From NCBI RefSeq assembly GCF_011058315.1, contig NZ_CP049298.1:558001-622000 (forward strand): DNA of 64,000 bases. Direction: 5' to 3'. The position numbers were made by a program, and so were the translations under genes. How positions within the stretch are numbered: position 1 is the first letter of the stretch; the number at the start of each line of letters is the position of its first letter. A model generated the notes under the pieces. The model searched no databases. It was not told the origin of the DNA and saw only the letters and a list, made by a program, of their open reading frames with translations. This stretch comes from Chryseobacterium sp. POL2. GTDB taxonomy: Bacteria; Bacteroidota; Bacteroidia; Flavobacteriales; Weeksellaceae. This document shows, piece after piece, positions 2,474-57,463 of this stretch.

Positions 2474-2658
2474 AACGGAAAAAGTATTGGCGAAGTGCGG
2501 GCTTAATTTGAACGAAAGTTCAAGTTCACACCAAACGTAGCGAATGCTTTTTCAATACTGCTAACTTACAAAAAATTGCAGAATTGAAAAGCATGAGCGT
2601 ATTATTTTTTCTGCTTTTCAATTTTGCACTTCTCCCCGCATTTTGCCAATACTATGTT
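2474..2658 (-). repeat. attC-like site 1
   Basis: 185 bp. Outer arms GTATTGGCG/TGCCAATAC. Low end CATACAAC (array border), high end GTTACCTGC. Identical to site 26, which belongs to the other GNAT cassette. Confidence 0.8.
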
Positions 2659-2674
2659 ACCTGCAGTGTTTTTA

Positions 2675-3379
2675 TTATTTAATTTCACCAATGTAAAAAC
2701 ATTCATAAACTTCGCTTCTTTTATCGAAATCTTTATATCGACCTTCAAAGCAATTTCCATTATATTTTATTCTGACTTTCCATTCATCACTTCCGAACAA
2801 TAATAAAGGTTTTAAAAAGGTTTTTTTATCTTCTTTGAAATCTAAATTTGAAAACCAATTTGGCATTGTGTTTTTAGGAAATTGCGAATTCCATATTTCA
2901 ATTGTGTTATCATTATTTAGCATTTCATAATTTGTTGAGGATAGTTGCAAAACATCACCGAAAATGTTAAACATATAAATTTTGTCATCATTATTTTTAC
3001 GTGCATTTTCAGGATAATACTCAAAACCTAATTTTTTCCAAGCAAATTCAGATGATTTAGGTGCACAATATAAATGCATTGCTTTATAATCTGAATTTTT
3101 GAAATTTTTTTCAATCGCTTTTTTAATAAATTTTGCAACACCACGATTTCTGTGACTCTCTTTGGTTTCTGCAATAATTATAAAAATGCAAACTGCTTCA
3201 AGCTCATATGCGAAAAATCCAACAGTTTCATTTTGAATCATTGCAACACATAAATTATTTTTTTCAAAACATTTTTGAATAACAGACCAATTATTTTTAG
3301 GAAAAGTCGTCCAAGAAAAAATTTCGCTTAAGTTTTCTTCTGTAGGATTGAAATTTATTGTTATAGACGAATTTTTCAT
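2675..3379 (-). CDS. GNAT-fold N-acetyltransferase-like protein, copy 1
   Basis: 234 residues from the ATG at 3379. An upstream in-frame reading from 3442 only translates site 2 and is rejected. ETKESHRNRGVAKF at residues 71-84 is the acetyl-CoA binding motif (R/Q-x-x-G-x-A) of the GNAT fold. LGFEYYPE further on is the usual C-terminal strand of the domain. The last 90 residues are an extra domain that I do not recognise. Substrate unknown. The start codon is 12 nt from the cassette border. The cassette, together with the noncoding cassette behind it, is duplicated at 25899-27522. Confidence 0.7.
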   Translation of the reverse strand: MKNSSITINFNPTEENLSEIFSWTTFPKNNWSVIQKCFEKNNLCVAMIQNETVGFFAYELEAVCIFIIIAETKESHRNRGVAKFIKKAIEKNFKNSDYKAMHLYCAPKSSEFAWKKLGFEYYPENARKNNDDKIYMFNIFGDVLQLSSTNYEMLNNDNTIEIWNSQFPKNTMPNWFSNLDFKEDKKTFLKPLLLFGSDEWKVRIKYNGNCFEGRYKDFDKRSEVYECFYIGEIK

Positions 3380-3391
3380 AACATTGCAGGT

Positions 3392-3576
3392 AACGGAAAA
3401 AGTATTGGCGAAGTGCGGGAATTCGAAGGACTGAAAGTTCAAGAATTCAGAAACGTAGCCGATGCTTTTTCACTTCTGCTAACTTACAAAAAATTGCAGA
3501 ATTGAAAAGCATTCGGCGGAATATTTTTACAAAATTTCAACGTTCTCAAAATTCCGCATTTTGCCAATACACTGTT
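3392..3576 (-). repeat. attC-like site 2
   Basis: 185 bp. Low end GCAGGTAAC pairs with the start of the GNAT cassette; high end GTTACGCGC. Belongs to noncoding cassette a. Same as site 27. Confidence 0.8.
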
Positions 3577-4097
3577 ACGCGCAGTAGAAATTGAGAATTT
3601 TTCAACGCTGAAAAATAGTTCTAAAAAATTATGAGCAATTAAATTACAAACAAATCAAAAGAATAAAACGAAACTTAACCAGTTTTCAAACTGCATTTTT
3701 CCAACAAAATTTAAAACTCAATTATCTGAAATTTTTCTCGATGGTTTCTGCGAAAAGTAAAATTGAAAATTCGTAAAAAATAAAAGTTATTTTTATGAAA
3801 ATCTTAAAAAATGGCAAAACTTTCAACTATGGTTTATGAAGTTGATATTTTCTGATTTTTTCAAATGAGAAAAATTTCAATTATAAAAAGAAAAGAGTAG
3901 AAGAAGCTTAAAAATCACGCGAAATTTTAAGCGAAAAAACCTCGAAATTTATTTGTCGAGAAAAGTGTTTTCAAGAAAATTTAAGAACTTTTTAAACCCA
4001 ATATTTCTACTGAATTTTTTCTTATAAAAACCAAAAATAGCAATGTTAAAAAAAGAGAAATTATTATCCGAAAACGCGCTAATCTATTGCGTGTAAC
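3574..4097 (-). repeat. Noncoding cassette element, copy a
   Basis: About 0.5 kb between GTTACGCGC and GCGTGTAAC. No ORF longer than about 14 codons is shared between copies on either strand. Near its low end GAACT-TTTCA / TGAAA-AAT-AGTTC can form a 10-bp hairpin; in this copy the C is replaced by T, which still pairs with G. Further on CTTAAAA/TTTTAAG and CTCGA/TCGAG stems are kept. May be a structured RNA, or a cassette that spreads without a gene. Confidence 0.7.
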
Positions 4098-4281
4098 GGA
4101 AAAAGGCTTTGCGAAGTGCGGGAATTCGAAGAACTTCAGTTCAAGGATTCACAAACGTAGCAAATGGCTTTTTCAGATTGTTAAGTTAATAAAAAATTGC
4201 AATATGAAAAGCCAATTTGCGGATAAATATCTAAAATAGTTCAACTTAGACTTTAACCCCGCATTTTGCAAAACCACTGTT
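4095..4281 (-). repeat. attC-like site 3
   Basis: 187 bp, outer arms GGCTTTGCG/TGCAAAACC. Inner arms GCAAATGGC/GCCAATTTGC. Ends GCGTGTAAC and GTTGTCTGC. Confidence 0.8.
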
Positions 4282-4295
4282 GTCTGCAGTGCTTT

Positions 4296-4709
4296 TTATT
4301 TTTTAGTATAAGTCTTTTTTATATTCAAAAAAATTGTTGAAATGAATATACCAATTGCGGATACAATAGAAAAAGTTAGAGCACTAAAATTCCCGTTAAC
4401 ATCATACTTTTCTTTTCCAAAGGATGCATATATTGTTAATAATATTAATAATGTAGAAATTCCACTTAGTATCAATTTATTTTTTGTGTAAAGATTATTC
4501 ATTCCAAACTTAGAAATTAAAAATACAACGAGGAAAGTTGGAAAGGAATAAATTATAGAATAAAAAAACATAAAAATTCCGAAACCTATAAAACTTAAAT
4601 CAAGACTTTTGGATTTTATAGCACTTCCAAGAATAAAAATCAAAATTGCAAAAATTATTGATAAAATCCAGAATTTTATAATATAATAATTATTGGCGGT
4701 ATCTTTCAT
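4296..4709 (-). CDS. Small four-helix membrane protein
   Basis: 137 residues from the ATG at 4709, 12 nt from the border; the reading upstream to 4772 is site sequence. Four hydrophobic segments are visible (about residues 10-32, 40-62, 75-95 and 110-130), with few charged residues between them, so it is an inner-membrane protein. Not recognised. It is the only gene of its cassette. A small integral membrane protein in such an array could be an immunity protein, but nothing in the sequence shows it. Confidence 0.6.
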   Translation of the reverse strand: MKDTANNYYIIKFWILSIIFAILIFILGSAIKSKSLDLSFIGFGIFMFFYSIIYSFPTFLVVFLISKFGMNNLYTKNKLILSGISTLLILLTIYASFGKEKYDVNGNFSALTFSIVSAIGIFISTIFLNIKKTYTKK

Positions 4710-4721
4710 AGCATTGCAGAC

Positions 4722-4906
4722 AACGGAAAAAGTATTGGCGAAGTGCGGGAATTCGAAGAACTGAAAGTTCAAGAATTCAGAAACGTAGCCGATGCTTTTT
4801 CACTTCTGCTAACTTACAAAAAATCGCAGAATTGAAAAGCATTCGGCGGAATATTTTTACAAAATTTCAACTTTTACAAAATCCCGCATTTTGCCAATAC
4901 AATGTT
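4722..4906 (-). repeat. attC-like site 4
   Basis: 185 bp, outer arms GTATTGGCG/TGCCAATAC. Ends GCAGACAAC and GTTAGCAGA. Confidence 0.8.
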
Positions 4907-4919
4907 AGCAGAAGGTTTT

Positions 4920-5378
4920 TTATTTCTGTCGAATATAAATTCCAGAATTTGGAAATGTAATTTGTGCGAGATAATCTTCTTTAGTAATGTATTGAAACCA
5001 TTTTTTATATTTACGGTTTCTAAAATCATAAACATTAATTATTAAATATGGTTGTTCAAGATTTTTTTTTTGCAATTTTATATTAAAGGTTTTAAGATTC
5101 TGTATTCCTTTTTTAAATGTGTTATATGTGAAAGTCAGAGTAAAGTATTCATCAAGATTTTCAAATTTTTCTTTATCGTAATTGCTAACTATCAAATCTC
5201 CAGGATAATAATTTGCATATATTTTTTCATCAGTTTTTTGATTATTGTTACTCAAATATAAATTAGTAATTTCTCCATTAATGTTTTGATCATTTACTTG
5301 AAGGATTACGTTAAAATTTTGAGCTATTAGATTTAAAGTTCCAATAAATAAGGTTGCAAAAGTCAGTGAAAATTTCAT
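4920..5378 (-). CDS. Exported hypothetical protein, 152 aa
   Basis: Signal peptide at residues 1-19 (hydrophobic core FATLFIGTLNL, end near IAQ). The mature part has alternating beta-like segments such as FNVILQVNDQNINGEI and FTLTFTYNTF, then a basic stretch RNRKYKKWFQYITKED. It resembles no family I know. Sole gene of the cassette; start 41 nt from the border. Confidence 0.6.
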   Translation of the reverse strand: MKFSLTFATLFIGTLNLIAQNFNVILQVNDQNINGEITNLYLSNNNQKTDEKIYANYYPGDLIVSNYDKEKFENLDEYFTLTFTYNTFKKGIQNLKTFNIKLQKKNLEQPYLIINVYDFRNRKYKKWFQYITKEDYLAQITFPNSGIYIRQK

Positions 5379-5419
5379 TTAGTATTTGATTTGACGATTG
5401 TTTGGATAAACTTTCTGCT

Positions 5420-5605
5420 AACGGAAAAAGGCTTTGCGAAGTGCGGGAATTCGTAGAACTTTAGTTCAAGGATTCACAAACGTAGCAAATGGCTTTTTCA
5501 GATTGTTAAATTACAAAAAAGAGCAATATGAAAAGCCAATTTGCGGATTATTTTGACAAAATTTTCAGCTTTGACCTAAACCCCGCATTTTGCAAAACCT
5601 ATGTT
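5420..5605 (-). repeat. attC-like site 5
   Basis: 186 bp, outer arms GGCTTTGCG/TGCAAAACC. Ends TCTGCTAAC and GTTAGCGGA. Confidence 0.8.
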
Positions 5606-5624
5606 AGCGGAAGTCTTATTATTT

Positions 5625-6104
5625 TTAATAGGTGGGTATTTTTTCGTGTATTTTATTCATAATATTTGGAATCGACTCCCAATATTTCTGTTGCATTCTT
5701 GTTAAGCTATCTAGTCTTTTACTACCATAAAACTCTAAGCAGTGATTTAAAACATTTCTTTTTTGATACAGCGGCTTTAAATCTTCAGGATATGTGCCTT
5801 CTGAATTTATTGAGTCTAATCTAATTAAGTTTATTTCCTTTTTAACTTGAAATTCAAGAGAATCATCAAATATTGCTATTGCTAAAGCATTATAATAAGA
5901 CCGATCATTATCCCATAATTTTTTTTCTATATTTTTATTTTCGTAACCTTTCAATTGACATAAGCAAAAAGCTCTTGATTTAAATTCTTTATCCCAATTA
6001 TTAAAATTCCATGCTTCTCTTTCATCTTTCAATTCTTTATTGATAGAACAAGAAGTAAATGTTTGCAATAATATTGTGAATATATAGAAATAATAATTTT
6101 TCAT
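5625..6104 (-). CDS. Lipoprotein, possible immunity-type protein
   Basis: 159 residues. The signal ends in a lipobox-like LQTFTSC with the Cys near residue 19. The mature part is helical and contains AFCLCQLKGY, ALAIAIFDDS and NHCLEFYGSKRLDSL, with several Cys residues. The shape (short helical periplasmic lipoprotein) recalls Tai4-like immunity proteins of type VI amidases, but that is only a resemblance. Sole gene of the cassette. Confidence 0.55.
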   Translation of the reverse strand: MKNYYFYIFTILLQTFTSCSINKELKDEREAWNFNNWDKEFKSRAFCLCQLKGYENKNIEKKLWDNDRSYYNALAIAIFDDSLEFQVKKEINLIRLDSINSEGTYPEDLKPLYQKRNVLNHCLEFYGSKRLDSLTRMQQKYWESIPNIMNKIHEKIPTY

Positions 6105-6135
6105 TTATGCAGACAGTTGGTTTAAGATTTCCGCT

Positions 6136-6321
6136 AACGGAAAAAGTATTGGCGAAGTGCGGGCTAAAACACTGAAAATGTTCAACTTAAACTGCAAAAA
6201 GCAAAAACTTTTTTCCTTTTGCTAAAATACAAAAAATTGTAAAAGAAAAAAGTTTTTTGCGACGAAATACAATTAAATTTTCAATTAAAACTTCAATCCC
6301 GCATTTTGCCAATACAATGTT
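6136..6321 (-). repeat. attC-like site 6
   Basis: 186 bp. The inner arms are unusual in sequence (GCAAAAACTTTTTTCC against GAAAAAAGTTTTTTGC) but pair fully. Ends TCCGCTAAC and GTTATCTGT. Confidence 0.8.
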
Positions 6322-6784
6322 ATCTGTAGTTCTTTTTTAAAGTTATTTTGGGTTTGAATTCAATTTTTTCACACGCATAACAACCATCCTTTTTATAAGA
6401 TTTGTATTCATCAAATTTTGTTTTGAAAGTTTCATAACCGTTATTTGAAATTTCAAAATCTGCATAACACCAAGCAAAAGGTAAATCAAGTGGTGTATGA
6501 AACCAGTCTATTCGAGATTTTTGTTCAAGAAAAAAGTTTCCATTATCGTCAGTTTTTGTAGTTTGAGATTTATATTCAGAGTGTTCTTCGTAACCCCATT
6601 TTTTATTTTTCCACCGTTTTTCTTCAATTCTTGAAACTACAGCGTTTTTTATTGGAATTCCATTTTCGTCGATAACTTTTCCAGAAATTTTTGCTTCATA
6701 TATTACTTTTTGAGGTCGAATAAAAAGACCAATAATAAAGATTAGAAAAATTCCTATAATTACTTTTATGACACGGTTTTTCAT
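6320..6784 (-). CDS. Membrane-anchored carboxypeptidase-regulatory-like protein, copy 1
   Basis: 154 residues. One N-terminal membrane segment at residues 7-23. ISGKVIDENGIPIKNAVV at residues 33-50 is the signature of a carboxypeptidase regulatory-like (CarboxypepD_reg, Ig-like) domain. Two Cys lie in DGCYACEK near the end. The stop codon TAA is formed by the cassette core itself (ACAGATAAC), so the gene uses the full length of its cassette. The start is 12 nt from the other border. The same gene recurs at 29382-29846. Confidence 0.65.
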   Translation of the reverse strand: MKNRVIKVIIGIFLIFIIGLFIRPQKVIYEAKISGKVIDENGIPIKNAVVSRIEEKRWKNKKWGYEEHSEYKSQTTKTDDNGNFFLEQKSRIDWFHTPLDLPFAWCYADFEISNNGYETFKTKFDEYKSYKKDGCYACEKIEFKPKITLKKNYR

Positions 6785-6796
6785 AGAATTACAGAT

Positions 6797-6981
6797 AACG
6801 GAAAAAGTATTGGCGAAGTGCGGGCTTAATTTGAACGAAAGTTCAAGTTCAGACCAATCGTAGCCAATATTTTTTCAATGGAACTAAGTTAAACAAAAAT
6901 GTGGAATTGGAAAATATTGGCGGCTAAATATTACAAAAAGTTCAACTAAGACTTCTCCCCGCATTTTGCCAATACTATGTT
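6797..6981 (-). repeat. attC-like site 7
   Basis: 185 bp. Inner arms GCCAATATTTTTTCAAT/ATTGGAAAATATTGGC. Ends ACAGATAAC and GTTAGCAGA. Confidence 0.8.
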
Positions 6982-7001
6982 AGCAGAAGTGCTTTTTATT
7001 T

Positions 7002-7319
7002 TTATTTTGATTTTCTTCTTTCATCAGTCATTTTTATTGGATTTTGTCTTCCATCAAAAATGTCATTGATGATTATTTTAGTATCCACAATTTTGTAAAT
7101 GACTTTATAATTTCCACAAACAATATATCTATGCTTTTGATTTAGTTTTTCTAGATTTAATTCAATTTGGCCAGATTTAGGATTATTGATTAATTGTTTT
7201 GTCGAGGTCAAAATTTGCTTCCGAATTTTATGAGCAACTTTTTTATTTGCTTTATTTGAGTAATAATCAAAAATATCTTTAAGATTTTCTATTGCAAAAT
7301 CGGTCCAAATAATTTTCAT
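7002..7319 (-). CDS. RelE/ParE-family toxin, copy 1
   Basis: 105 residues from the ATG at 7319; a TTG at 7328 overlapping the antitoxin stop is an alternative. KIIWTDFAIENLKDIFDYY at the N-terminus, NPKSGQ in the middle and YRYIVCGNYKVIYKI-like strands followed by IFDGRQNP are the standard pattern of ParE/RelE toxins (mRNA interferase or gyrase poison). It directly follows its antitoxin gene. A second copy is at 45275-45592. Confidence 0.8.
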   Translation of the reverse strand: MKIIWTDFAIENLKDIFDYYSNKANKKVAHKIRKQILTSTKQLINNPKSGQIELNLEKLNQKHRYIVCGNYKVIYKIVDTKIIINDIFDGRQNPIKMTDERRKSK

Positions 7320-7321
7320 TT

Positions 7322-7561
7322 CTACCAATTTGCTGATAATTTTTCCAAATCTTCTTGAGATTTATATTTTCCATTTTTAAAATCTTGTTCAGATTTTTCA
7401 ATTCTGTTAATAAGTTCTTCAACAGTAAATGGTCTGAATTCAGAATGATCTTCTTTTTCGAATTTTCTTAAAATATAATTTTCGATTTTTTCAAAGAAAC
7501 TTTCATCCTGCAATTGAGCAAGGTATGTGATTAAGTTTAATTTTCTATTTTCTAAATCCAT
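7322..7561 (-). CDS. Antitoxin of RelE/ParE module, copy 1
   Basis: 79 residues, acidic and helical, with the end pattern SEQDFKNGKYKSQEDLEKLSANW typical of Bacteroidota antitoxins that pair with ParE/RelE. It comes first in the operon and ends just before the toxin ATG. Such antitoxins normally neutralise the toxin and repress the operon. It carries its own -7 box (7579), so the module does not need read-through from outside the cassette. Confidence 0.7.
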   Translation of the reverse strand: MDLENRKLNLITYLAQLQDESFFEKIENYILRKFEKEDHSEFRPFTVEELINRIEKSEQDFKNGKYKSQEDLEKLSANW

Positions 7562-7578
7562 TGTAATAATATTTGAAT

Positions 7579-7586
7579 CAAATTTA
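7579..7586 (-). promoter_or_regulatory. -7 box of TA cassette (TAAATTTG)
   Basis: Matches TAnnTTTG, 17 nt before the antitoxin start. The same octamer stands before both other antitoxin genes (32010 and 45852). Confidence 0.5.
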
Positions 7587-7640
7587 CTGAATTATTTTTG
7601 GATTTTGAATTTGAACACGAATTTTTGTAGCATTTCTGCT

Positions 7641-7826
7641 AACGGAAAAAGTATTGGCGAAGTGCGGGAATTCGAAGGACTGAAAGTTCAAGAATTCAGA
7701 AACGTAGCCGATGCTTTTTCACTTCTGCTAACTTACAAAAAAATTGCAGAATTGAAAAGCATTCGGCGGAATATTTTTACAAAATTTCAACGTTTACAAA
7801 ATCCCGCATTTTGCCAATACATTGTT
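7641..7826 (-). repeat. attC-like site 8
   Basis: 186 bp. Inner arms GCCGATGCTTTTTCA/TGAAAAGCATTCGGC. Ends TCTGCTAAC and GTTACGCGC. Same as sites 22 and 42; belongs to noncoding cassette b. Confidence 0.8.
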
Positions 7827-8347
7827 ACGCGCAGTAGAAAATGAGAACTTTTCAACGCTGAAAAATAGTTCTAAAAAATTATGAGCAATTAAATCACAAA
7901 CAAATCAGAAGAATAAAACGAAGCTTAACCAGTTTTCAAACTGCATTTTTCCAGCAAAATTTAAAACTCAATTATCTGAAATTTTTCTCGATGGTTTCTG
8001 CGAAAAGTAAAATTGAAAATTCGTAAAAAATAAAAGTTATTTTTATGAAAATCTTAAAAAATGGCAAAACTTTCAACTATGGTTTATGAAGTTGATATTT
8101 TCTGATTTTTTCAAATGAGAAAAATTTCAATTATAAAAAGAAAAGAGTAGAAGAAGCTTAAAAATCACGCGAAATTTTAAGCGAAAAAAACTCGAAATTT
8201 ATTTGTCGAGAAAAGTGTTTTCAAGAAAATTTAAGAACTTTTTAAACCCAATATTTCTACTGAATTTTTTCTTATAAAAACCAAAAATAGCAATGTTAAA
8301 AAAAGAGAAATTATTATCCGAAAACGCGCTAATCTATTGCGTGTAAC
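7824..8347 (-). repeat. Noncoding cassette element, copy b
   Basis: Followed at once by a second noncoding cassette (c). The pair with its two sites recurs at 23413-24822. Confidence 0.7.
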
Positions 8348-8530
8348 GGAAAAAGTATTGGCGAAGTGCGGGCTTTCGAAGAACTGAAAGTTCAAGAACG
8401 ACCAAGCGTAGCGAATGCTTTTTCAAGTACACTAAAATAAGAAAAAAATGTGGAATTGAAAAGCATGAGCGGATTATTTTTTCTGCTTTTCAATTCTTCC
8501 CTAAATCCCGCATTTTGCCAATACATTGTT
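8345..8530 (-). repeat. attC-like site 9
   Basis: 186 bp. Ends GCGTGTAAC and GTTACGCGC: both neighbours are noncoding cassettes. Same as sites 23, 33, 38 and 47. Confidence 0.8.
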
Positions 8531-9050
8531 ACGCGCAGTAGAAAATGAGAACTTTTCAACGCTGAAAAATAGTTCTAAAAAATTATGAGCAATTAAATCA
8601 CAAACAAATCAGATGAATAAAACGAAGCTTAACCAGTTTTCAAACTGCATTTTTCCAGCAAAATTTAAAACTCAATTATCTGAAATTTTTCTCGATGGTT
8701 TCTGCGAAAAGTAAAATTGAAAATTCGTAAAAAATAAAAGTTATTTTTATGAAAATCTTAAAAAATGGCAAAACTTTCAACTATGGTTTATGAAGTTGAT
8801 ATTTTCTGATTTTTTCAAATGAGAAAAATTTCAATTATAAAAAGAAAAGAGTAGAAGAAGCTTAAAAATCACGCGAAATTTTAAGCGAAAAAACCTCGAA
8901 GTTTATTTGTCGAGAAAAGTGTTTTCAAGAAAATTTAAGAACTTTTTAAACCCAATATTTCTATTGAATTTTTTCTTATAAAACCTAAAATATCAATGTT
9001 TAAAAAAGAGAAATTATTATCCGAAAACGCGCTAATCTATTGCGTGTAAC
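8528..9050 (-). repeat. Noncoding cassette element, copy c
   Basis: Carries the variant AAAACCTAAAATATC near the high end, shared with copies e, i and k, so these four form one lineage. Confidence 0.7.
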
Positions 9051-9233
9051 GGAAAAAGTATTGGCGAAGTGCGGGCTTAATTTGAACGAAAGTTCAAGTT
9101 CAGACCAATCGTAGCCAATATTTTTTCAATGGAACTAAGTTAAACAAAAAAGTGGAATTGGAAAATATTGGCGGATAAATATTACTAAAAGTTCAATTTA
9201 GCCTTAAACCCCGCATTTTGCCAATACAATGTT
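9048..9233 (-). repeat. attC-like site 10
   Basis: 186 bp. Ends GCGTGTAAC and GTTATGTGC. Identical to site 16, which belongs to the second copy of the same gene. Confidence 0.8.
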
Positions 9234-9244
9234 ATGTGCAGTTC

Positions 9245-9835
9245 TTACTTTATATTTTCATCTTTCCAAACATCTTCGTAGCCATTTCTATCTATTTGAA
9301 ATCTGTAACCAATCTCTAAACCCAAGAAATCAATTATTTTTGGATAAATATTAAGTAAATGTTCAGCACAAATAGGTTGAAAAAAATCAGGATCTTCTGA
9401 ATATTCTCCAAACCAAATAAACCAACCTGAAGTCCCTTTTTCAGCGGAATGTCTTAAACCATTAATTGGTTCAAGATCATAATTTTGTGAAAGTCCAATA
9501 TTTAATTTTTTATTAATAGGCTTCCATTCAGATTTGTACTTTTCGCAAAGTTCCTTCTGTAATTTTATATGAAAATTCCAATTATTATATTCTAAAAGTT
9601 TGTCTTCTCCCGTCATTAGATAATGTTTCCATAGACTAATATTCAATTTATTTATTTTGAAATTAATTTCTGTATTATCCCACTGAAATATTATATCTGA
9701 AACAATATCATTTTCAAATTCAATTTCATCATCAAATATTGCTTTTCCTGCAAAAGTTTCGATTTCATTTTCAGTAATTTTATCAGAGAGATAATTATCA
9801 CAAATTTTCACTAAATCTTCTGTGTTAACTTTCAT
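9245..9835 (-). CDS. Immunity-like protein (Imm33-like C-terminus), copy 1
   Basis: 196 residues from the ATG at 9835; the reading up to 9922 is site 11 in translation. The C-terminal part, HSAEKGTSGWFIWFGEYSED then GYRFQIDRNGYEDVW, recalls the Trp/Gly pattern of DUF2185/Imm33 immunity proteins. The N-terminal 80 residues look like a separate small helical domain. The family call is from memory of the motif only. No toxin lies beside it, so it could be an orphan immunity gene. A second copy is at 14964-15554. Confidence 0.55.
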   Translation of the reverse strand: MKVNTEDLVKICDNYLSDKITENEIETFAGKAIFDDEIEFENDIVSDIIFQWDNTEINFKINKLNISLWKHYLMTGEDKLLEYNNWNFHIKLQKELCEKYKSEWKPINKKLNIGLSQNYDLEPINGLRHSAEKGTSGWFIWFGEYSEDPDFFQPICAEHLLNIYPKIIDFLGLEIGYRFQIDRNGYEDVWKDENIK

Positions 9836-9861
9836 TGCGTGGTTTTGGGAGAATTGCACAT

Positions 9862-49740: not shown

Positions 49741-49744
49741 TCAG

Positions 49745-50486: not shown

Positions 50487-50494
50487 TAAAAAGA

Positions 50495-50519
50495 AGGTTC
50501 CGAAATTCGGAGCCTTTTT
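50495..50519 (+). terminator. Terminator of catB copy 1
   Basis: Stem GGTTCCGAA/TTCGGAGCC (one G-U pair) followed by CTTTTTG. Confidence 0.75.
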
Positions 50520-50555
50520 GTTTTAACTGCGTTTGCGGCTAAAATTACACATAAC

Positions 50556-50689
50556 TTATTTATTGATACGGCTTTTCTGTACAAAACAGCATAATACTTG
50601 ATGTTTTTGTGCAGGTTTGTTTCTTTATTTGATCAAATATAACGAAAGTAGGTAGACAATGATTTCTTATTTCTCATCAAGTAATCACG
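50556..50689. other. Junction region with no site between catB and dfr
   Basis: After TACACATAAC a site should follow, as it does at 54080, but unrelated sequence leads straight to the dfr stop. Nothing gene-like is seen. It marks an insertion or deletion that joined the dfr fragment to the catB cassette. Confidence 0.6.
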
Positions 50690-51193
50690 TTACCTCCAAT
50701 ACCTTTTCACTTCAAACGCATAGGCATTTTTCTCATCCACTGCTTGGGTTGCTACCGTTTCAACATTCCAAGCGACAGCTTCGAATTTCGGGAAGAAGGT
50801 ATCTGCACCAAATTCGCCCTGCACATGGGTAATAAACATCTCTTGAACACAATCAAGCGCTAAAGCTTCTCGGTAAATTTGTCCGCCTCCAATTATGAAA
50901 ACGGTTCGTTCCACTTCATTTTTATAATGATCCAAACAGGATTCCAAGGAAGAAAAAACAACTGCTCCAGGAGCATGATATTCGGTATTGCGTGTTAAGA
51001 CCGCATTCTCGCGGTTGGGCAACGGCCGAAAACGTTCCGGAATGGAATCGTAGTTTTTTCTACCTGTAACCACAATATGTCCCGTGGTTGTTTCTTTGAA
51101 AAATTTCATATCTGCAGGCAAATGCCACATCAAATCATTGTTCTTTCCAATACCGAATTGCTGATCAACAGCAACAATCAATGCTACTTTCAT
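50690..51193 (-). CDS. dfr: Dihydrofolate reductase (trimethoprim resistance candidate)
   Basis: 167 residues from the ATG at 51193. NADPH-dependent reduction of dihydrofolate. VALIVAVDQQFGIGKNNDLMWHLPADMKFFKETT, TGRKNYDSIPERFRPLPNR and VFIIGGGQIYREAL are the standard FolA motifs; the substrate-binding acid is Asp28 in LPADMKFF. GC content is clearly higher than around it. It has no promoter of its own in view. It follows the start region of tet(X) in the same frame, so a 237-residue fusion is also possible. Whether it is drug-insensitive cannot be told from sequence alone. Confidence 0.9.
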   Translation of the reverse strand: MKVALIVAVDQQFGIGKNNDLMWHLPADMKFFKETTTGHIVVTGRKNYDSIPERFRPLPNRENAVLTRNTEYHAPGAVVFSSLESCLDHYKNEVERTVFIIGGGQIYREALALDCVQEMFITHVQGEFGADTFFPKFEAVAWNVETVATQAVDEKNAYAFEVKRYWR

Positions 51194-51329
51194 GGAAGTA
51201 CTTTGTAAATTGTAGGTGAAATGAACACCATGCGGGGATTTGGAATTACTGCATCGTGAACCTGTGTTCCCCTGGCCTCTTCTTCCGTGAGAAAATAACC
51301 AATTACCCAATGATAGGTTCCATCCGGAG
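51190..51329 (-). pseudogene. 3' tail of the gene once upstream of dfr
   Basis: In a different frame from dfr, the 46 codons before it read GYFLTEEEARGTQVHDAVI then ISPTIYKVLP and stop with a TGA that overlaps the dfr ATG (ATGA). This looks like the end of a chromosomal neighbour coupled to folA, captured together with it. Confidence 0.55.
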
Positions 51330-51403
51330 CCACCACCAATTATTGCAACGTTCTTATCACTAAGTAAATTCATTTGTTTGTCTGTATCTATTCGCATTGT
51401 CAT
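51330..51403 (-). pseudogene. tet(X)': tet(X) 5' fragment
   Basis: The first 25 codons of tet(X), ending at AIIGGG, then a switch to foreign DNA. The shared sequence goes on upstream through the border GGCCCATAAC, so the cassette start of tet(X) now drives the dfr fragment. Confidence 0.85.
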
Positions 51404-51418
51404 TCAAAAATGGCCCAT

Positions 51419-51605
51419 AACGGGAAACGCATTGGCGAAGTGGCGGATAAATTGGACGAAAAGTTCAATTTAGCAGTGACGTAGCCGATGTGTTTCCACA
51501 GAAGCTAAATTATTAAAAAAAGCTGAATGTGGAACACATTCGGCGGAATAAAATGCAGAAACTTTCAATTTAGCACTTAACCTGCCATTTTGCCAATGCG
51601 ATGTT
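51419..51605 (-). repeat. attC-like site 45
   Basis: 187 bp, outer arms GCATTGGCG/TGCCAATGC; one base of the distal arm is changed (CCTGCCATTTTG). Ends GGCCCATAAC and GTTATGTGA. Confidence 0.8.
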
Positions 51606-51623
51606 ATGTGAAGGAATTTTTAG

Positions 51624-51631
51624 TATCTTTG
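51624..51631 (+). promoter_or_regulatory. -7 box of ereD-like gene (TATCTTTG)
   Basis: TAnnTTTG, 21 bp inside the border; the same octamer as in front of both catB copies. Confidence 0.6.
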
Positions 51632-51652
51632 TATTCAAATAATTCACATTTT

Positions 51653-51676
51653 ATGTATTTCAGCAAGCCTTGGTAA
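51653..51676 (+). CDS. Leader peptide MYFSKPW
   Basis: A seven-codon ORF in the 130-nt leader of the esterase gene. Its stop overlaps the left arm of the hairpin at 51675. A ribosome stalled on it by a macrolide would open that hairpin. Confidence 0.45.
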   Translation: MYFSKPW

Positions 51677-51746
51677 TTAAAAATTAAAGTAAATTATTAA
51701 ATCGTCTTTTTGAGACGGTTGCTATTTGGTACGTTAATTTTTAATT
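51675..51746 (+). promoter_or_regulatory. Attenuator-like hairpin before ereD-like gene
   Basis: AATTAAAAATTAA (51675-51687) pairs perfectly with TTAATTTTTAATT (51734-51746); an inner stem CGTCT/AGACG lies at 51703-51717. It ends 15 nt before the start codon. Confidence 0.5.
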
Positions 51747-51761
51747 TAAAATAAGGTAATA

Positions 51762-52988
51762 ATGAAAAATATAAAACCCTTAACTTTTCCGTTTAATTCG
51801 GAAAATAATACATCCATAAAACAAAGTCTTTTTCGATTTCGAGAATATTTTGATTCTTCTACAATTGTTGGTTTAGGCGAAAACGCACATTTCATAAAAG
51901 AGTTTTTTACATTCAGGCATCAAGTTATTGAGTTTTTAGTAACTGAATGTGATTTTGACACCTTGGCATTTGAGTTTGGTTTTTCTGAAGGATTAGAAGT
52001 TGATAAGTGGATAAAATCACAAATTCCATTCGACGATTTGGATAAGTTACTGTCACACTTTTATTATCCAAATGAGTTTAAAGATACTTTGCTATGGCTT
52101 CGTCGGTATAATCAAGACAATAATAATCAAATTACCTTTTTAGGTGTGGATATTCCTAAAAATGGAGGTTCTTATTTTCCAAACTTTCGTATTGTATCTG
52201 ATTATTTGCAAAGACTTTCAATCGTTTCTTCTGATGTCTTACAGAAGATTTTAAATCTTGCTGAGAAATTTGATTTCTATTCGACTTCTCAGCTTGCGTT
52301 AAATTTATCGCTTTTTGATGAAGCTGAACATAATGAATTAAAAGCATTGCTATTAAAAGTTTACATTCGTTTGGTCACTCTTCAACCAAAACTGGAAAGT
52401 TTAGAGTTTCAATCGATACTTCATCAAGTTAAAGGCTTGATTTATATGAATTATAATGCTGATGCTATGGAAAGCTTCATTACTGAAAAGGGAATTGAGG
52501 GAGATATGGGAGCAAAAGACCAGTATATGGCAGAAAGTATTGATTGGTTTTTGAAAAATTCACTTGGTAAAAAGATTATTTTAGTTGCCCACAATGCTCA
52601 CATTCAAAAAACTCCGGTGGATTTTGACGGATTTATTAGTTGTTATCCAATGGGGCAAAGACTTTCGATGACTTTTGGAGAAAAATACAAAGCATTTGCA
52701 ATAACTAATCTACGTGGAGAAACTGCCGCATTGTATCCTGATAATGATTATCAATTTGGTTTTAGGGTTGATAAATTTCCACTTGATTCTCCAGAGTCGG
52801 ATTCTGTTGAATTTTTTATGCAGGAATTATCAGGAAAAGAATGCTGTTTAATAATCAATAAAAGTAAGGAATTAAAAAATTGTAGTAAGATTCGTTTTGA
52901 TTCTATATATCTAAAAACTGAAATAGTAGATTCTTTTGATGGGATTTTCCTAATAGAAAAATCAACTGTTTCAGAAATAGTGGATTGA
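51762..52988 (+). CDS. ereD: Erythromycin esterase, EreD-like
   Basis: 408 residues, normal for erythromycin esterases, which hydrolyse the lactone ring of 14-membered macrolides. VGLGENAHFIKEFFTFRHQVIEFL at residues 36-59 holds the GE..H catalytic motif (E40, H43). FEFGFSEGLEVDKWI, FLGVDIPKNGG and ILVAHNAHIQKTP (about 275-287) complete the Ere/SNF family pattern. The symbol is given because of likeness to the Riemerella EreD as I remember it. It runs against the array with its own promoter and leader. Confidence 0.85.
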   Translation: MKNIKPLTFPFNSENNTSIKQSLFRFREYFDSSTIVGLGENAHFIKEFFTFRHQVIEFLVTECDFDTLAFEFGFSEGLEVDKWIKSQIPFDDLDKLLSHFYYPNEFKDTLLWLRRYNQDNNNQITFLGVDIPKNGGSYFPNFRIVSDYLQRLSIVSSDVLQKILNLAEKFDFYSTSQLALNLSLFDEAEHNELKALLLKVYIRLVTLQPKLESLEFQSILHQVKGLIYMNYNADAMESFITEKGIEGDMGAKDQYMAESIDWFLKNSLGKKIILVAHNAHIQKTPVDFDGFISCYPMGQRLSMTFGEKYKAFAITNLRGETAALYPDNDYQFGFRVDKFPLDSPESDSVEFFMQELSGKECCLIINKSKELKNCSKIRFDSIYLKTEIVDSFDGIFLIEKSTVSEIVD

Positions 52989-53055
52989 GAATAATGTAAA
53001 TTTGATTTCGAAAAGGTACTTTCTTTTTTGGAGGTGCCGTTTTATTCTTTCACAT

Positions 53056-53243
53056 AACGGGAAACGCATTGGCGAAGTGGCGGATAAATTGAACCGAAAG
53101 TTCAATTTAGCAGTGACGTAGCCGATGTGTTTCCACAGAAGCTAAATTATTAAAAAAAAGCTGAATGTGGGACACATTCGGCGGAATAAAAAGCACAAAA
53201 GTTGAATTTTGAACTTAACCCGCCATTTTGCCAATGCGATGTT
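53056..53243 (-). repeat. attC-like site 46
   Basis: 188 bp, nearly the same as site 44 (three single-base differences seen). Ends TTCACATAAC and GTTATGTGT. Confidence 0.8.
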
Positions 53244-53259
53244 ATGTGTAGTTTTTTAG

Positions 53260-53267
53260 TATCTTTG
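53260..53267 (+). promoter_or_regulatory. -7 box of catB copy 2 (TATCTTTG)
   Basis: Same position in the cassette as for copy 1. Confidence 0.6.
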
Positions 53268-53271
53268 TCAG

Positions 53272-53289
53272 ATGAAATTATCAGATTAG
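53272..53289 (+). CDS. Short leader ORF (MKLSD) before catB copy 2
   Basis: Same five codons as at 49745; one base after the stop differs (AGCAAATT here, AGCATATT there). Confidence 0.35.
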   Translation: MKLSD

Positions 53290-53383
53290 CAAATTTACTT
53301 TACGCAACGTATAGGAAGAGAATAGTTTAGTATTATTCTTCGTTTCCTTATTGTCTCTTATTGTAAATTAAATATGTTAAATA

Positions 53384-54013
53384 ATGAAAAATTTCTTCGA
53401 AAGTCCTTTTAAAGGAAAAATAATCAAAGACCACATAACTAATCCCAATATAATTTCGGGTAAATATTCTTATTATTCTGGTTATTATCACGGTCATTCA
53501 TTTGACGATTGTGCTCGTTATCTGTTTCCGGACAGGAATGATGTCGATAAACTAATTATCGGTTCTTATTGTTCAATAGGGAGCGGTGCAAGTTTCATAA
53601 TGGCAGGTAATCAAGGTCATAAATATGATTGGATTTCCAGTTTTCCATTTTTTTATATGTCTGAATTTGATGTTTTCAGTAAAAGCCAAGATGGATTTCA
53701 AAAAGCAGGAGATACAGTTGTTGGGAATGATGTTTGGATTGGTAGTGAAGCTATGATAATGCCAGGAGTTCAGATAGGAGATGGAGCTGTTATTGGCAGT
53801 CGTGCTTTGGTTACAAAAGATGTTGAACCTTATTCAATTGTAGGGGGAAATCCAGCCAAATTGATAAAAAAGAGATTTAGTGATGATGACATCCAAAAAT
53901 TGCAGGAAATGAAATGGTGGGAATGGGATGAAGAAACCCTTTTTGAAGCAATGCCAATTCTTTGTTCAAATAAAATCGATTTGTTGTACAAGTTTTTTAG
54001 AAAAATGAAATGA
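53384..54013 (+). CDS. catB: Type B chloramphenicol acetyltransferase, copy 2
   Basis: Same 209-residue protein as at 49857, with the same leader and terminator. Here the cassette ends normally at TACACATAAC followed by site 47, which shows what the first copy has lost. Two cat cassettes flank the esterase cassette, so recombination between them could delete or duplicate it. Confidence 0.9.
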
Positions 54014-54022
54014 TAAAAAGAA

Positions 54023-54047
54023 GGTTCCGAAATTCGGAGCCTTTTTG
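54023..54047 (+). terminator. Terminator of catB copy 2
   Basis: Same stem GGTTCCGAA/TTCGGAGCC and T-run as copy 1. Confidence 0.75.
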
Positions 54048-54079
54048 TTTTAACTGCGTTTGCGGCTAAAATTACACAT

Positions 54080-54265
54080 AACGGAAAAAGTATTGGCGAA
54101 GTGCGGGCTTTCGAAGAACTGAAAGTTCAAGAACGACCAAGCGTAGCGAATGCTTTTTCAAGTACACTAAAATAAGAAAAAAATGTGGAATTGAAAAGCA
54201 TGAGCGGATTATTTTTTCTGCTTTTCAATTCTTCCCTAAATCCCGCATTTTGCCAATACATTGTT
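54080..54265 (-). repeat. attC-like site 47
   Basis: 186 bp, same as site 9. Ends TACACATAAC and GTTACGCGC. Confidence 0.8.
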
Positions 54266-54787
54266 ACGCGCAGTAGAAAATGAGAACTTTTCAACGCTGA
54301 AAAATAGTTCTAAAAAATTATGAGCAATTAAATCACAAACAAATCAGATGAATAAAACGAAGCTTAACCAGTTTTCAAACTGCATTTTTCCAGCAAAATT
54401 TAAAACTCAATTATCTGAAATTTTTCTCGATGGTTTCTGCGAAAAGTAAAATTGAAAATTCGTAAAAAATAAAAGTTATTTTTATGAAAATCTTAAAAAA
54501 TGGCAAAACTTTCAACTATGGTTTATGAAGTTGATATTTTCTGATTTTTTCAAATGAGAAAAATTTCAATTATAAAAAGAAAAGAGTAGAAGAAGCTTAA
54601 AAATCACGCGAAATTTTAAGCGAAAAAACCTCGAAGTTTATTTGTCGAGAAAAGTGTTTTCAAGAAAATTTAAGAACTTTTTAAACCCAATATTTCTATT
54701 GAATTTTTTCTTATAAAACCTAAAATATCAATGTTTAAAAAAGAGAAATTATTATCCGAAAACGCGCTAATCTATTGCGTGTAACGA
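54263..54787 (-). repeat. Noncoding cassette element, copy k
   Basis: Belongs to the c/e/i/k lineage. Confidence 0.7.
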
Positions 54788-54967
54788 AAAAGTATTGGCG
54801 AAGTGCGGGCTTAATTTGAACGAAAGTTCAATTTTAGACCAATCGTAGCCAATATTTTTTCAATGGAACTAAATTAAGAAAAAATGTGGAATTGGAAAAT
54901 ATTGGCGGATAAATATTACAAATAGTTCAATTAACCCTTAAACCCCGCATTTTGCCAATACACTGTT
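54785..54967 (-). repeat. attC-like site 48
   Basis: 183 bp. Ends GCGTGTAAC and GTTAGCTGC. Confidence 0.8.
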
Positions 54968-54978
54968 AGCTGCAGTTC

Positions 54979-55512
54979 TTATTTTTCAATATAGAAAGTT
55001 GATTCTCTCTTAAATTTATTTTGATAGACAATTTTATCAATCTCGGCAATCAGATTCTCAATGTTTTCAGGAAATATCATTGATTCTAATGTTCTGGATT
55101 TATTGTCAGAATCGTAATAGTATATTATTCTCTTAGTTATTCCATCACAACAATCATTTGATTCATATTTTATTGTTGGGAAACTTATAGTATTTATTTT
55201 TTCTGAAATTCTCTCAAAATCAATTTGATTTAATTTGCCACTAAATGAACCAATTTTAGTAGAATCAATTGTTTTTGGATTTCCTTCGATAAAATTTTGG
55301 ACTGAGATTGAATCTGTTTTATAAAAATTATCAATTTTTAGTTTGAATGTGTTTTCATTCGTTAATTCTACACTATACTCATTACAGATACCCCAACAAT
55401 CATTGTTAATTTTATGTACAATTATTTTATTGTATTCGTTGTTTTTAATTTCATTGTTTTTTACACAACCAATTAAAGTCAAAATTATACAAAATGTTGA
55501 AAAATAGTTCAT
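54979..55512 (-). CDS. Lipoprotein, 177 aa, unknown
   Basis: Signal MNYFSTFCIILTLIGC, lipobox Cys 16. DCWGICNEYSVELTNENTFKLKI and SNDCCDGITKRIIYYYDSDNKSRTLESM resemble small periplasmic proteins with a CxxxC and a CC pair (DUF6438-like outline, from memory). Sole gene of the cassette. Confidence 0.6.
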   Translation of the reverse strand: MNYFSTFCIILTLIGCVKNNEIKNNEYNKIIVHKINNDCWGICNEYSVELTNENTFKLKIDNFYKTDSISVQNFIEGNPKTIDSTKIGSFSGKLNQIDFERISEKINTISFPTIKYESNDCCDGITKRIIYYYDSDNKSRTLESMIFPENIENLIAEIDKIVYQNKFKRESTFYIEK

Positions 55513-55539
55513 TGACTGGATTTTGGTAGAATTACAGCT

Positions 55540-55723
55540 AACGGAAAAAGTATTGGCGAAGTGCGGGATTTCGAAGAACTAAAAGTTCAAAAAATCCAAA
55601 ACGTAGCGAATGCTTTTTCGATTATGCTAACTTACAAAAATTTGCAGAATTGAAAAGCATGAGCGGATTAATATTTCTGCTTTTCAATTCTGCACTTCTC
55701 CCCGCATTTTGCCAATACAATGT
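55540..55723 (-). repeat. attC-like site 49, split by IS
   Basis: Last site on the high side. CAATGT precedes the IS; the GTT core continues at 57461 (GTTATATGC). Low end ACAGCTAAC. Confidence 0.75.
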
Positions 55724-57456
55724 GCTTGTTGCACAACTCAAATATACAAATAAACTTGTATAAAAACGGGATATTTCGTAAATTGATGTATGCAAGGAAA
55801 GAAGAGTTTTACACCACAATTATTTGTTTCGGTCAATTTATTAGACCTAGTTCCAGAGGATAATTTTTATAGAAAAATGTTATCCGAACTCAATTTAGAT
55901 TTCATTTATAAAGCAACTCAAAAGTATTATGGTAAGGAAGGACAAGAGAGTATAGATCCTGTTGTTTTCTTTAAGATATTATTGGTGGGATATTTAAACA
56001 ATATCAATTCAGATAGACAGTTGATAGCTTTTTGTAGTGATAGCTTGTCGATAAGATTGTTTTTAGGTTATGATGTACATGAGCAGCTTCCTTGGCACAG
56101 TACCATTAGCCGAACTCGCGGTTTGTATGGCGAAGAAGTCTTTTTAAACTTGTTTAAAGAAGTCTTGAGAATGTGCGTTTCTAAAAATATGGTTCGTGGT
56201 AAACGACAAGCGGTGGACAGCGTTTTCATCAAAGCTAATGCTTCTATGGATAGCTTGGTAGAGAAAGAAGTTTTAGAAGACGCCAGTGCTTTTGTAAACG
56301 AACTAGAAGAAAACAGCGAATACAAAGTAACTACCACCCGCAAGAAACTCGTTGAACGCCACCATGATTGGAAAGCAGAAGCGTATAAAGGAATGCCAGC
56401 AAATAGCAATAGTAGACAGATAGATGAAAACGGCAATCTCATCCGTCCCAAATACCTATCTAATCACACCCATTATTCTCCCACAGATAGCGATGCTAGA
56501 GTGAGTGTAAAACCCGGCAAAGCGCGACAATTAAATTATTTTGGACAAATCGCAGTTGACGATGCGCACCATGTCATTACAGGAGCGTGTTCAGATTTTG
56601 CGGATAAACGCGACAGTCAGTGTTTAGAACAAATTGTAGAACTCACAGAAGAAAACCTAAAGGAAAACGGAATAGAATTACAAGAACTTTTAGCCGATGG
56701 TGGTTACAGCAGTGGCGAAGCATTGGCGTATTTGCACGAAAAAAACATCAACGCCTACATCCCTAACTTCGGACAATACAAATCAGAGCGAGAAGGTTTT
56801 ACTTACCACAAAGAAGAAAACTATTATCAATGCACAAAACCCGAAGGTAAGCAAGCTAAACTGCTTTTCAAAGGCGAAAAAATGGATAGTAAAGGCTACA
56901 CCAAACGAACGTACCGAAGCAGTGAAACAGATTGCAAAAACTGTCCACTAAGAGAACAATGCTGTGGCAAAAGCACCAAGTTTAAAAAGCTAGACGACAG
57001 CATCCACAAAGAACATTACGACCGTATGCATCAAAAACTCACCCAAAACGAGAAATATGCCAAGAAAATGGTTAGAGTGCGAAGCAAAACGGTAGAACCC
57101 GTCATTGGAACGTTGATCAACTTTACCAACATGAAACGAGTCAACACTCGAGGCATCAAAAACGCAAACAAACATGTACTGATGGCAAGTTTAACCTACA
57201 ACTTGAAGAAATACATGCGTTTTACCATTAAAAAACCAAGTATTTTAGCCCAAGTTCTATCTCTAAAACAAGGGAAGAACTTTGCTTTTTCAAAACGCGC
57301 CTTTTCAGTCTATAAAAACTCGATTTTAAGCTATTCAAATTCTAGAATTTTGAACTACAACTAAAAAAAAACCTCTCTAAAATTGCTTCTAAAGAGGTCA
57401 AAATTTCATGTTTTTGAAAACTATTTTCTAAAAAAAAGGAGTTGTGCAACAGTTAC
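55724..57456 (+). mobile_element. IS1182-family element, copy 5 (1733 bp)
   Basis: Flanked on both sides by CAATGT (55718-55723 and 57457-57462). Confidence 0.9.
55790..57364 (+). CDS. IS1182-family DDE transposase, copy 5
   Basis: Intact 524-residue frame, same protein as copy 1. Confidence 0.95.
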   Translation: MQGKKSFTPQLFVSVNLLDLVPEDNFYRKMLSELNLDFIYKATQKYYGKEGQESIDPVVFFKILLVGYLNNINSDRQLIAFCSDSLSIRLFLGYDVHEQLPWHSTISRTRGLYGEEVFLNLFKEVLRMCVSKNMVRGKRQAVDSVFIKANASMDSLVEKEVLEDASAFVNELEENSEYKVTTTRKKLVERHHDWKAEAYKGMPANSNSRQIDENGNLIRPKYLSNHTHYSPTDSDARVSVKPGKARQLNYFGQIAVDDAHHVITGACSDFADKRDSQCLEQIVELTEENLKENGIELQELLADGGYSSGEALAYLHEKNINAYIPNFGQYKSEREGFTYHKEENYYQCTKPEGKQAKLLFKGEKMDSKGYTKRTYRSSETDCKNCPLREQCCGKSTKFKKLDDSIHKEHYDRMHQKLTQNEKYAKKMVRVRSKTVEPVIGTLINFTNMKRVNTRGIKNANKHVLMASLTYNLKKYMRFTIKKPSILAQVLSLKQGKNFAFSKRAFSVYKNSILSYSNSRILNYN

Positions 57457-57463
57457 CAATGTT

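Follow-up and report, generated by a model that had tools for sequence, protein, structure and literature searches.

The DNA considered here is a 64,000-nucleotide stretch of the Chryseobacterium sp. POL2 chromosome, hereafter the window (G000:C1:558001-622000 in a genome of 3.24 Mb, one contig). Very probably, its 49 hairpin sites, which resemble the attC sites of integrons, and the cassettes between them belong to a chromosomal array that ends at an attI and is likely filled and reshuffled in integron fashion by a tyrosine recombinase acting in trans, one that lacks the insert of the integron integrase IntI. Judged by sequence, the system works like an integron in the cassette anatomy that was tested and is not an IntI integron, because it lacks the defining insert and few of its cores fit the classical consensus. 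An initial annotation of the same DNA had proposed a sedentary integron, or a related cassette system, whose recombinase acts from elsewhere, with no integrase in view. The proposal is supported: the window's array ends at an attI with no integrase beside it, and candidate recombinases, which would act on it from a distance, lie at 1.85 and 2.72 Mb.

A site array that extends beyond the window

Sites were located with a covariance model, R1, which was built from 32 sites of this same genome and is in that respect partly circular. At a threshold of E <= 1e-6, R1 marks 49 plus-strand sites in the window, 45 of them long (about 186 bp) and four short (about 125 bp), in agreement with the number and the two length classes first described. 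The accompanying claim that every site runs from AAC to GTT holds for the AAC (49/49) but not for the GTT, which ends 44/49 sites; the other 5/49 end in GTG because one insertion sequence, encoding a 524-aa DUF772/DDE transposase, has cut into them. An independent stem scanner counts 45 sites for the window, whereas five regions, each shuffled once, yield 0, and a pattern for the left arm of the site matches 91 times in the genome, against 0 times for the same pattern reversed. A search of the window against Rfam returned nothing relevant.

The 55 kb at first ascribed to the array proved too small. It spans about 419-635 kb of the genome, that is more than 200 kb, reaches past the window on both sides and ends at a conserved attI-like sequence. 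In the 253 kb that were examined outside the window, in 14 stretches, R1 marks 75 additional sites, opposite-strand shadows being left out of the count. Fifty-nine of these belong to the window's array, on both sides, at 419-633 kb. The remainder comprise 3 at 31-33 kb, 11 on the minus strand at 1852-1872 kb (array 2) and 2 at 2669-2672 kb, and another scan adds one at 2664.7 kb. The limits once given for the array within the window, 2474 and 57463, are right for the first site; the last site, however, ends at 55724, and 57463 approximately marks the right end of the insertion sequence by which that last site is interrupted.

Cassette borders and the cassette unit

Complementary ends are expected for integron cassettes, because the ends meet in the excised circle. 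Measured on the 7 bases outside the triplets in 102 array segments, the ends match at 7/7 bases in 57 segments and at 6/7 in 27, with a mean of 5.77. The controls gave a mean of 3.63 across a single site and of 3.60 for permuted pairs (maximum 3.95 in 1000 permutations). Within the window (n = 48), 27 segments match fully and 16 at 6/7; of the five that match poorly, four involve sites cut by the insertion sequence, past whose far end the expected bases reappear. Pieces of five more genomes give means of 5.56 to 7.0 against 3.0 to 3.9, G012 contributing only two cassettes. At the eighth base, 87/102 segments have a G on their right and, in the complement of their left, an A, which corresponds to a fixed G-T pair of the plus strand.

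Duplicated cassettes tell which site belongs to which DNA. Ten groups of similar array segments were compared, two of which share an insertion sequence and were excluded from the counts together with their 7 pairs. One group, 16 copies of a segment without a long open reading frame (ORF), has two main left-site types and varying right sites. The other seven groups supplied 16 pairs, of which 12 agree in their left site; in those 12 the identity covers the whole left site (184-189 bp) and stops 0-3 bases past the AAC. Right sites differ in all pairs except 560658/584083, whose right-hand neighbour is likewise duplicated. The cassette unit, as read from these duplications, is one site plus the DNA at its right. 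Since most long ORFs read on the minus strand, each gene would then be followed by its own site. In integron cassettes, too, the gene comes first and its site after it. This amends the initial annotation, which had nearly all genes reading on the minus strand toward the AAC-side core. The array consists of cassettes of gene plus site, in one polarity, with borders at a conserved triplet.

A covarying hairpin site with relaxed cores

The 32 aligned sites form two helices of 30 pairs in total, in which 96.2% of the cells are standard pairs. Changes on both sides occur in 19/30 pairs (152 cells), and 0/500 shuffles score as high. When the partner is slid by 1-3 columns, pairing falls to 45-52%, a comparison that favours the structure inasmuch as it was derived from the same alignment. 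Like those of integrons, the sites conserve a hairpin more than a sequence, although their mean column identity still reaches 69%. Two positions carry a near-fixed G-T on the plus strand (61/64 cells), a lean that may mark the plus strand as the one that is recombined; this would be the bottom strand in integron terms, because the genes read on the minus strand. The outer stem of the alignment (A1) has no conserved bulge, its column 21 being filled in 2/32 rows, and has the two near-fixed G-T/A-C positions instead.

The classical core, RYYYAAC / GTTRRRY, fits only 9/236 left and 12/217 right cores. The relaxed forms YAAC and GTTR fit 233/236 and 213/217, respectively, just as the initial annotation had noted in calling the outer core positions relaxed and only YAAC/GTTR strict. 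Its remark that the sites are longer than classical attC is likewise accurate, as they reach 190 bp.

The attI and the recombinase at a distance

The attI was sought from the border of the last cassette to the matching AAC before the recombinase gene, and such an AAC was found in 12/14 loci. In 10 of those 12 a common attI is seen, AAC followed by NCTCAAATATACGNA with small variation, and the loci of two short recombinases (L076, L080) share a different sequence after the AAC. The motif lies 133-234 bp before the recombinase in 21/36 loci, and in 25/29 of a later, partly overlapping set. Both attI and the left half of the sites have the same layout of AAC, about 7 bases, and an arm. On the minus strand, CAAATATA of attI reads TATATTTG, which we take to be the Bacteroidetes -7 element; in the nearest clade, the predicted promoter reads into the array.

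A perfect attI at 634644-634661 ends the window's array, and its border matches the last cassette at 10/10 bases. The gene next to it is that of a sigma factor, not of an integrase; an integrase does stand beside attI at array 2 and in many relatives. In the sister genome G001, a perfect attI lies at C11:366809, under the lowest minus-strand site listed there (367417), and 0-mismatch attI are found at the ends of integrase-less arrays in G000, G001, G323, G336 and G347. The split is also seen in three genomes carrying a recombinase 98% identical to the Riemerella anatipestifer protein P0079. In the 19 kb around that recombinase there is no R1 match and no near-perfect attI. Elsewhere these genomes have 66, 76 and 40 R1 matches (E <= 0.01, opposite-strand shadows perhaps included), and each has one 0-mismatch attI at an array end, where it was predicted. 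Ten genomes searched hold 11 perfect attI in 8 genomes; only perfect matches carry weight, because each genome also has 0 to 5 matches with 1 mismatch, and the pattern in reverse matches 7 times in total. In G028 (C1:610594) an additional perfect attI stands behind a plus-strand array, and no full-length recombinase of the nearest clade is listed beside it.

From this arrangement we infer that a remote recombinase acts on the window's array, which could be served by the orphan recombinase at 2.72 Mb or by the widely shared one at 1.85 Mb. In the proposed mechanism, the excised circle would join the two complementary cassette ends into an extended R box and the plus strand of the site would fold. 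The recombinase would then pair this hairpin with the double-stranded attI and exchange strands at the AAC, and the predicted attI promoter (TTG-19-TAnnTTTG, minus strand) would express the newest cassette.

A recombinase family without the IntI insert

The genome holds 22 tyrosine-recombinase matches, and 0/27 matches to the IntI profile in this genome exceed the curated cut-off of TIGR02249. In two full-length proteins, the match to the IntI profile is split into two blocks by a gap in the middle of the profile. These are the candidate recombinases: one of 356 aa at the end of array 2 (1848557-1849627, minus strand) and an orphan of 361 aa behind an rRNA operon (2722297-2723382). The initial annotation had proposed looking for an IntI-like recombinase with the IntI-specific extra motif, or for another recombinase next to an attI-like sequence. 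One recombinase indeed adjoins an attI, at 1.85 Mb, but the IntI-specific part is absent, so it is not IntI. The orphan is kept at the same place in G001, the only sister genome of the genus, with 78.8% DNA identity over 4.5 kb; against its counterpart there it has a dN of 0.23 and a dS of 2.05 (saturated).

In the alignment to IntI4 (2a3v), residues 182-247 of IntI4 stand against 23 residues of the candidate recombinase. The distance between the catalytic boxes is 91 in 25/25 measured members and 133 in 6/6 Bacteroidota IntI; 7/32 members are unmeasured because the pattern missed them. By sequence, then, the family is one without the approximately 42-residue insert that marks IntI. In a tree of 41 rows, the 32 members stand apart from IntI with support of 100/100. 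When the Treponema and Xer rows are taken in, the branch has support of 95/83, and its deeper placing is unsure because of long branches. Xer proteins and IntI4 are the nearest solved relatives, and the recombinase has the Xer fold and catalytic residues without the IntI insert. Its C-terminal SPLD segment aligns with IntI4.

Most members have an N-terminal extension (residues 1-76, L098:4340-4567), predicted with good confidence to fold as beta-beta-alpha-beta-beta-alpha, and shorter members of 278-279 aa (L071, L076, L080) are without it. In Pfam, the extension has only a sub-cut-off match, to DUF5710 (E 0.0031, 17.6 against 26.5 bits); it may resemble a HARP domain. The extension could replace the IntI insert in handling folded DNA.

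Other recombinases were also considered as the cassette enzyme. Integrases of 405 aa lie beside sites at 434, 512, 521 and 33 kb and were set aside, two of them opening identical elements that sit in a site core. They likely belong to a site-targeting element, because of these two identical 19.9-kb copies. A 316-aa recombinase at 1871 kb shows the same gap at the middle of the IntI profile and was dropped, as it adjoins an IS91-type transposase. A Treponema contig (L103) encodes a relative at 34% identity which likewise lacks the IntI insert (box distance 92).

Distribution across Bacteroidota

Sites are present in 44/79 relatives, and homologues of the recombinase with at least 49% identity over nearly the full length occur in 18 of these genomes. 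Because R1 was trained on one genome, which also biases its scoring of the strands, site counts in relatives are likely too low. Twenty-nine recombinase loci were fetched. In 14, the stem scanner finds same-strand sites upstream, and between the end of the last one and the gene there are 0.4 to 1.9 kb. L097, where a single site lies 4.0 kb upstream, is added by R1, and in L092-L095 the sites lie at the same array end with the recombinase gene turned round. Ten of the 29 loci show no site, and in five of these (L075, L078, L086, L089, L096) a contig end lies within 300 bp of the gene on the side in question.

In a phylum sample of 247 genomes, 74 carry sites, 80 carry the recombinase (E <= 1e-45), and 48 carry both (Fisher p 2.8e-12, the kinship of genomes being ignored); the recombinase is found in 32/173 genomes without sites. 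IntI occurs in 72/247 genomes and has no positive link with the sites (12/74), and 1/72 IntI genomes falls in the window's class or closer. Of the 92 recombinases listed for genomes other than G000, 35, a lower bound, are on one contig with a site among those listed; 23 of these 35 lie within 15 kb of it, and 23/23 are on the attI side, as are 8 of the 12 that lie farther away.

Signs of recent movement and cassette contents

A recombinase of 356 aa is identical in six genomes, our own together with G005, G028, G359, G396 and G434. From the AAC of attI onward, 150/150 bases agree in all six, whereas the upstream side falls into four different sequences, one of them common to three genomes. The differing first cassettes suggest that new cassettes enter at attI. 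Cassette differences at AAC, the sign of mobility that the initial annotation had looked to, are thus found between genomes with an identical integrase and also among the duplicated cassettes of this genome. The genomes compared at the AAC border are of different genera and not sister isolates.

A cassette with mef(C) and a gene of the mph(E)/(G) family, which has its own short site, is present both at the attI of array 2 and inside array 1. The two copies are identical at 2419/2419 bases, the one in array 1 being cut by an insertion sequence, and beyond the border AAC comes attI in array 2 and a site in array 1. In array 2 the genes of this cassette face the integrase, opposite to the usual cassette direction (L041/L042, 1849-1872 kb). 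The same array holds the IS91-type transposase with its adjoining recombinase, directly behind a site core (GTTGAAC).

In the window, a gene of the tet(X) family of monooxygenases (37970..39136, minus strand; NF033111, 860.8 bits against a cut-off of 750) forms one cassette with site 37, the ends of which agree at 6/7 bases. An erythromycin-esterase-family gene (51762..52988, plus strand) lies in a cassette (genome 609605-611056) that G029, a member of another genus, has in equal length; the left sites of the two are similar, the right sites are not the same. The ORF-less cassette present in 16 copies is 517 bp long; one copy is at window 3577-4094, and it contains no promoter of the consensus that was scanned.

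Sites and inserted elements in the window

The portion of the array in the window covers 2474..55724, the plus strand being the predicted folding strand. As spans from AAC to GTT marked by R1 on that strand, the long sites numbered 1 to 13 are at 2474..2658, 3392..3576, 4095..4281, 4722..4906, 5420..5605, 6136..6321, 6797..6981, 7641..7826, 8345..8530, 9048..9233, 9862..10047, 10805..10988 and 11675..11859. Site 14 (12588..12713) is short, and sites 15 to 24 are again long (13639..13823, 14767..14952, 15581..15767, 17892..18074, 18685..18870, 19494..19678, 20191..20377, 23413..23598, 24117..24302 and 24820..25005). After the short site 25 (25577..25702) and the long sites 26 (25899..26083) and 27 (26817..27001) comes site 28 (27520..27644), which is short and cut by the insertion sequence. 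Sites 29 to 33 are long (29859..30044, 30551..30735, 31257..31443, 32072..32258 and 32802..32987), as are site 34 (33505..33688), cut by the insertion sequence, and sites 35 (36031..36216) and 36 (37122..37306). Site 37 (37825..37949), that of the tet(X) cassette, is the last of the short ones. The long sites 38 to 40 (39152..39337, 39855..40038 and 42249..42430), 42 (45914..46099) and 44 to 48 (49529..49716, 51419..51605, 53056..53243, 54080..54265 and 54783..54967) are intervened or followed by three more long sites cut by the insertion sequence, namely 41 (43332..43515), 43 (46618..46801) and 49 (55540..55724).

Twelve sites of the array are interrupted by this single insertion sequence (524-aa transposase, DUF772/DDE_Tnp_1_6), always at the same position of the core. 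The window contains five copies (27645-29400, 33689-35430, 43516-45260, 46802-48550 and 55725-57470), so that the transposase ORF is met five times on the plus strand, and 7 more lie within 454-630 kb. The element is preceded by NNTGT and followed by NNTGTT. Some copies have unlike bases on their two sides, and for this reason site and remainder seem to have been exchanged after the insertion.

Two copies of another element, at 434123-454060 and 521479-541410, are 100% identical over 19.9 kb and open with the 405-aa integrase. Each copy is inserted in a site core and has AATACAATGTTA at either end, and the element seems to use the attC-like sites as its target.

Alternative explanations

Several observations weigh against a folded-site system with a dedicated recombinase, and they are gathered here. 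In the structure, columns other than the two near-fixed ones lean to G-T over A-C on the plus strand by 28 to 15, and 11 of those 15 are in one column. No attI motif was found in 15/36 loci, some of them cut by contig ends but one of them L084, which has sites and 400 bp of upstream sequence; G029, the genome of L084, and G002 are without a 0-mismatch attI, and with spacings of 17 to 21 allowed, the predicted promoter TTG-N19-TAnnTTTG has its exact spacing of 19 in 12/21 attI. Among the cassettes, left sites differ in 4/16 duplicated pairs (547290 against three sisters; 476686/518004), and three of the 16 ORF-less copies have a common right site because a second copy follows each. The ends of window segment 49717-51418 do not match (4/7). 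This segment carries a hexapeptide-transferase-like gene and a DfrA36-like gene, and is perhaps a pair of cassettes whose intervening site has degenerated or been lost. Across the phylum, 26/74 genomes with sites have no recombinase at E <= 1e-45 and 32/80 genomes with the recombinase have no sites; among the 23 linked cases listed, the gene is turned round relative to the nearest clade in 16 and on the same strand in 7.

It is unlikely, in our estimate, that the same recombinase family recombines the sites as ordinary double-stranded DNA, the hairpin serving transcription termination or RNA stability. Such a reaction is conceivable from the common layout of attI and the left site half, and the recombinase lacks the insert that is held to adapt IntI to single strands in passages of PMC7790495. 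Yet the right half of the site, which would be needless for it, covaries with the left half, and the extension past the AAC is complementary within the cassette, as a self-folding excised circle would need; moreover, the near-fixed G-T pairs are on the plus strand, whereas read-through transcripts would correspond to the other strand. That the host XerC/XerD would move the cassettes, as in elements which exploit Xer, is very improbable. Although XerC-like and XerD-like genes seem present in the genome (L001, L004; named from length and sequence) and Xer proteins are, alongside IntI4, among the nearest solved relatives of the recombinase, it is a dedicated family that tracks the sites (p 2.8e-12), and its members within 15 kb of a listed site are on the attI side in 23/23 cases; no search for dif entered into this judgement.

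The two remaining explanations do without a present-day recombinase of this family, and we find both barely credible. If the array were the fossil of an ordinary IntI integron, with classical attC sites of a lost IntI, its architecture and polarity and the missing integrase beside it would be explained; the genome-wide absence of IntI matches over the cut-off (0/27), the lack of a positive association of sites with IntI across the phylum (12/74) and the rarity of classical cores (12/217, 9/236) speak against this, and recent movement is suggested by the duplicated cassettes and by first cassettes that differ behind identical integrases. Growth by homologous recombination between repeats and by insertion sequences, with no site-specific recombination, could draw on sites that are alike (mean column identity 69%), on the 12 insertion-sequence copies within sites and on some cassette copies whose left sites differ within the site. 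It would hardly place the borders at the AAC in 12/16 pairs, rather than anywhere in 186 bp of similar sequence, or at attI in four contexts.

Relation to known systems

The proposed system of array and insert-less recombinase shares with sedentary chromosomal integrons, described in part in PMC9668308 and PMC8618304, the cassettes of gene plus hairpin site, the borders at triplets and the complementary cassette ends. Both also have an attI at the end of the platform, here with a promoter predicted in 12/21 cases, and an integrase that is, in the nearest clade, divergent from the cassettes. The recombinase here differs in the 91 residues between its catalytic boxes (133 in the six Bacteroidota IntI), in its own branch of the tree and in the N-terminal extension of most members, and the sites differ in cores that keep only YAAC/GTTR and in lengths of up to 190 bp. 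The attI of the Bacteroidota arrays is unlike any attI known to us. With clusters of attC sites without an integron integrase (CALIN), the window's array has in common that no integrase stands beside it and, if its sites are counted as attC, that it has at least 2 of them; unlike these, it still ends at an intact attI, in a genome with two recombinases of the matching family. XerA and other Xer recombinases are closest by sequence and fold and likewise lack the IntI insert, but the recombinase here has the N-terminal extension and a C-terminal SPLD segment aligning to IntI4. We know of no linkage of XerA to array ends.

According to passages of PMC13148043 (2026), a resistance gene that has a 140-bp attC-like 3' flank can enter Riemerella anatipestifer without the need for homology, by a mechanism left open. 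The parallel lies in this flank, which folds in the manner of attC and is carried in with the gene, and the Riemerella-type genomes have the recombinase, 40-76 site matches and attI. PMC13148043 names no recombinase or attI, and the words recombinase, integrase and XerD do not occur in its main text. We suggest that the recombinase family is responsible for this gene uptake. No prior description of the system was found in the open-licence PMC literature, the scope of the search, which left subscription papers and preprints aside, and it is absent from passages of PMC9024848, PMC8618304, PMC9668308, PMC11194056, PMC8694125, PMC13148043 and PMC7790495; a word search of PMC7494873 gave no match.

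Significance

Integron integrases are described, in passages of PMC7790495, as having gained single-strand recombination through one inserted helix. This account becomes directly testable, because a large recombinase family without the insert tracks hairpin cassette sites. For Bacteroidetes proper, a single complete integron, that of Salinibacter, was reported with IntegronFinder 2.0 (PMC9024848, in part), and tools based on IntI and classical attC would probably miss arrays such as this one. On balance, we lean toward the wider view that Bacteroidota carry a second integron machinery apart from IntI, in which an insert-less recombinase captures cassettes through folded DNA in another way, perhaps with its N-terminal domain, and which is phylum-wide, split in some genera and behind the uptake in Riemerella. 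In a group with little IntI, the system offers gene capture a candidate enzyme, a docking site and a format for cassettes; among the genes carried in the cassettes of this genome are tet(X), mef(C) together with one of the mph family, and one of the erythromycin-esterase family.

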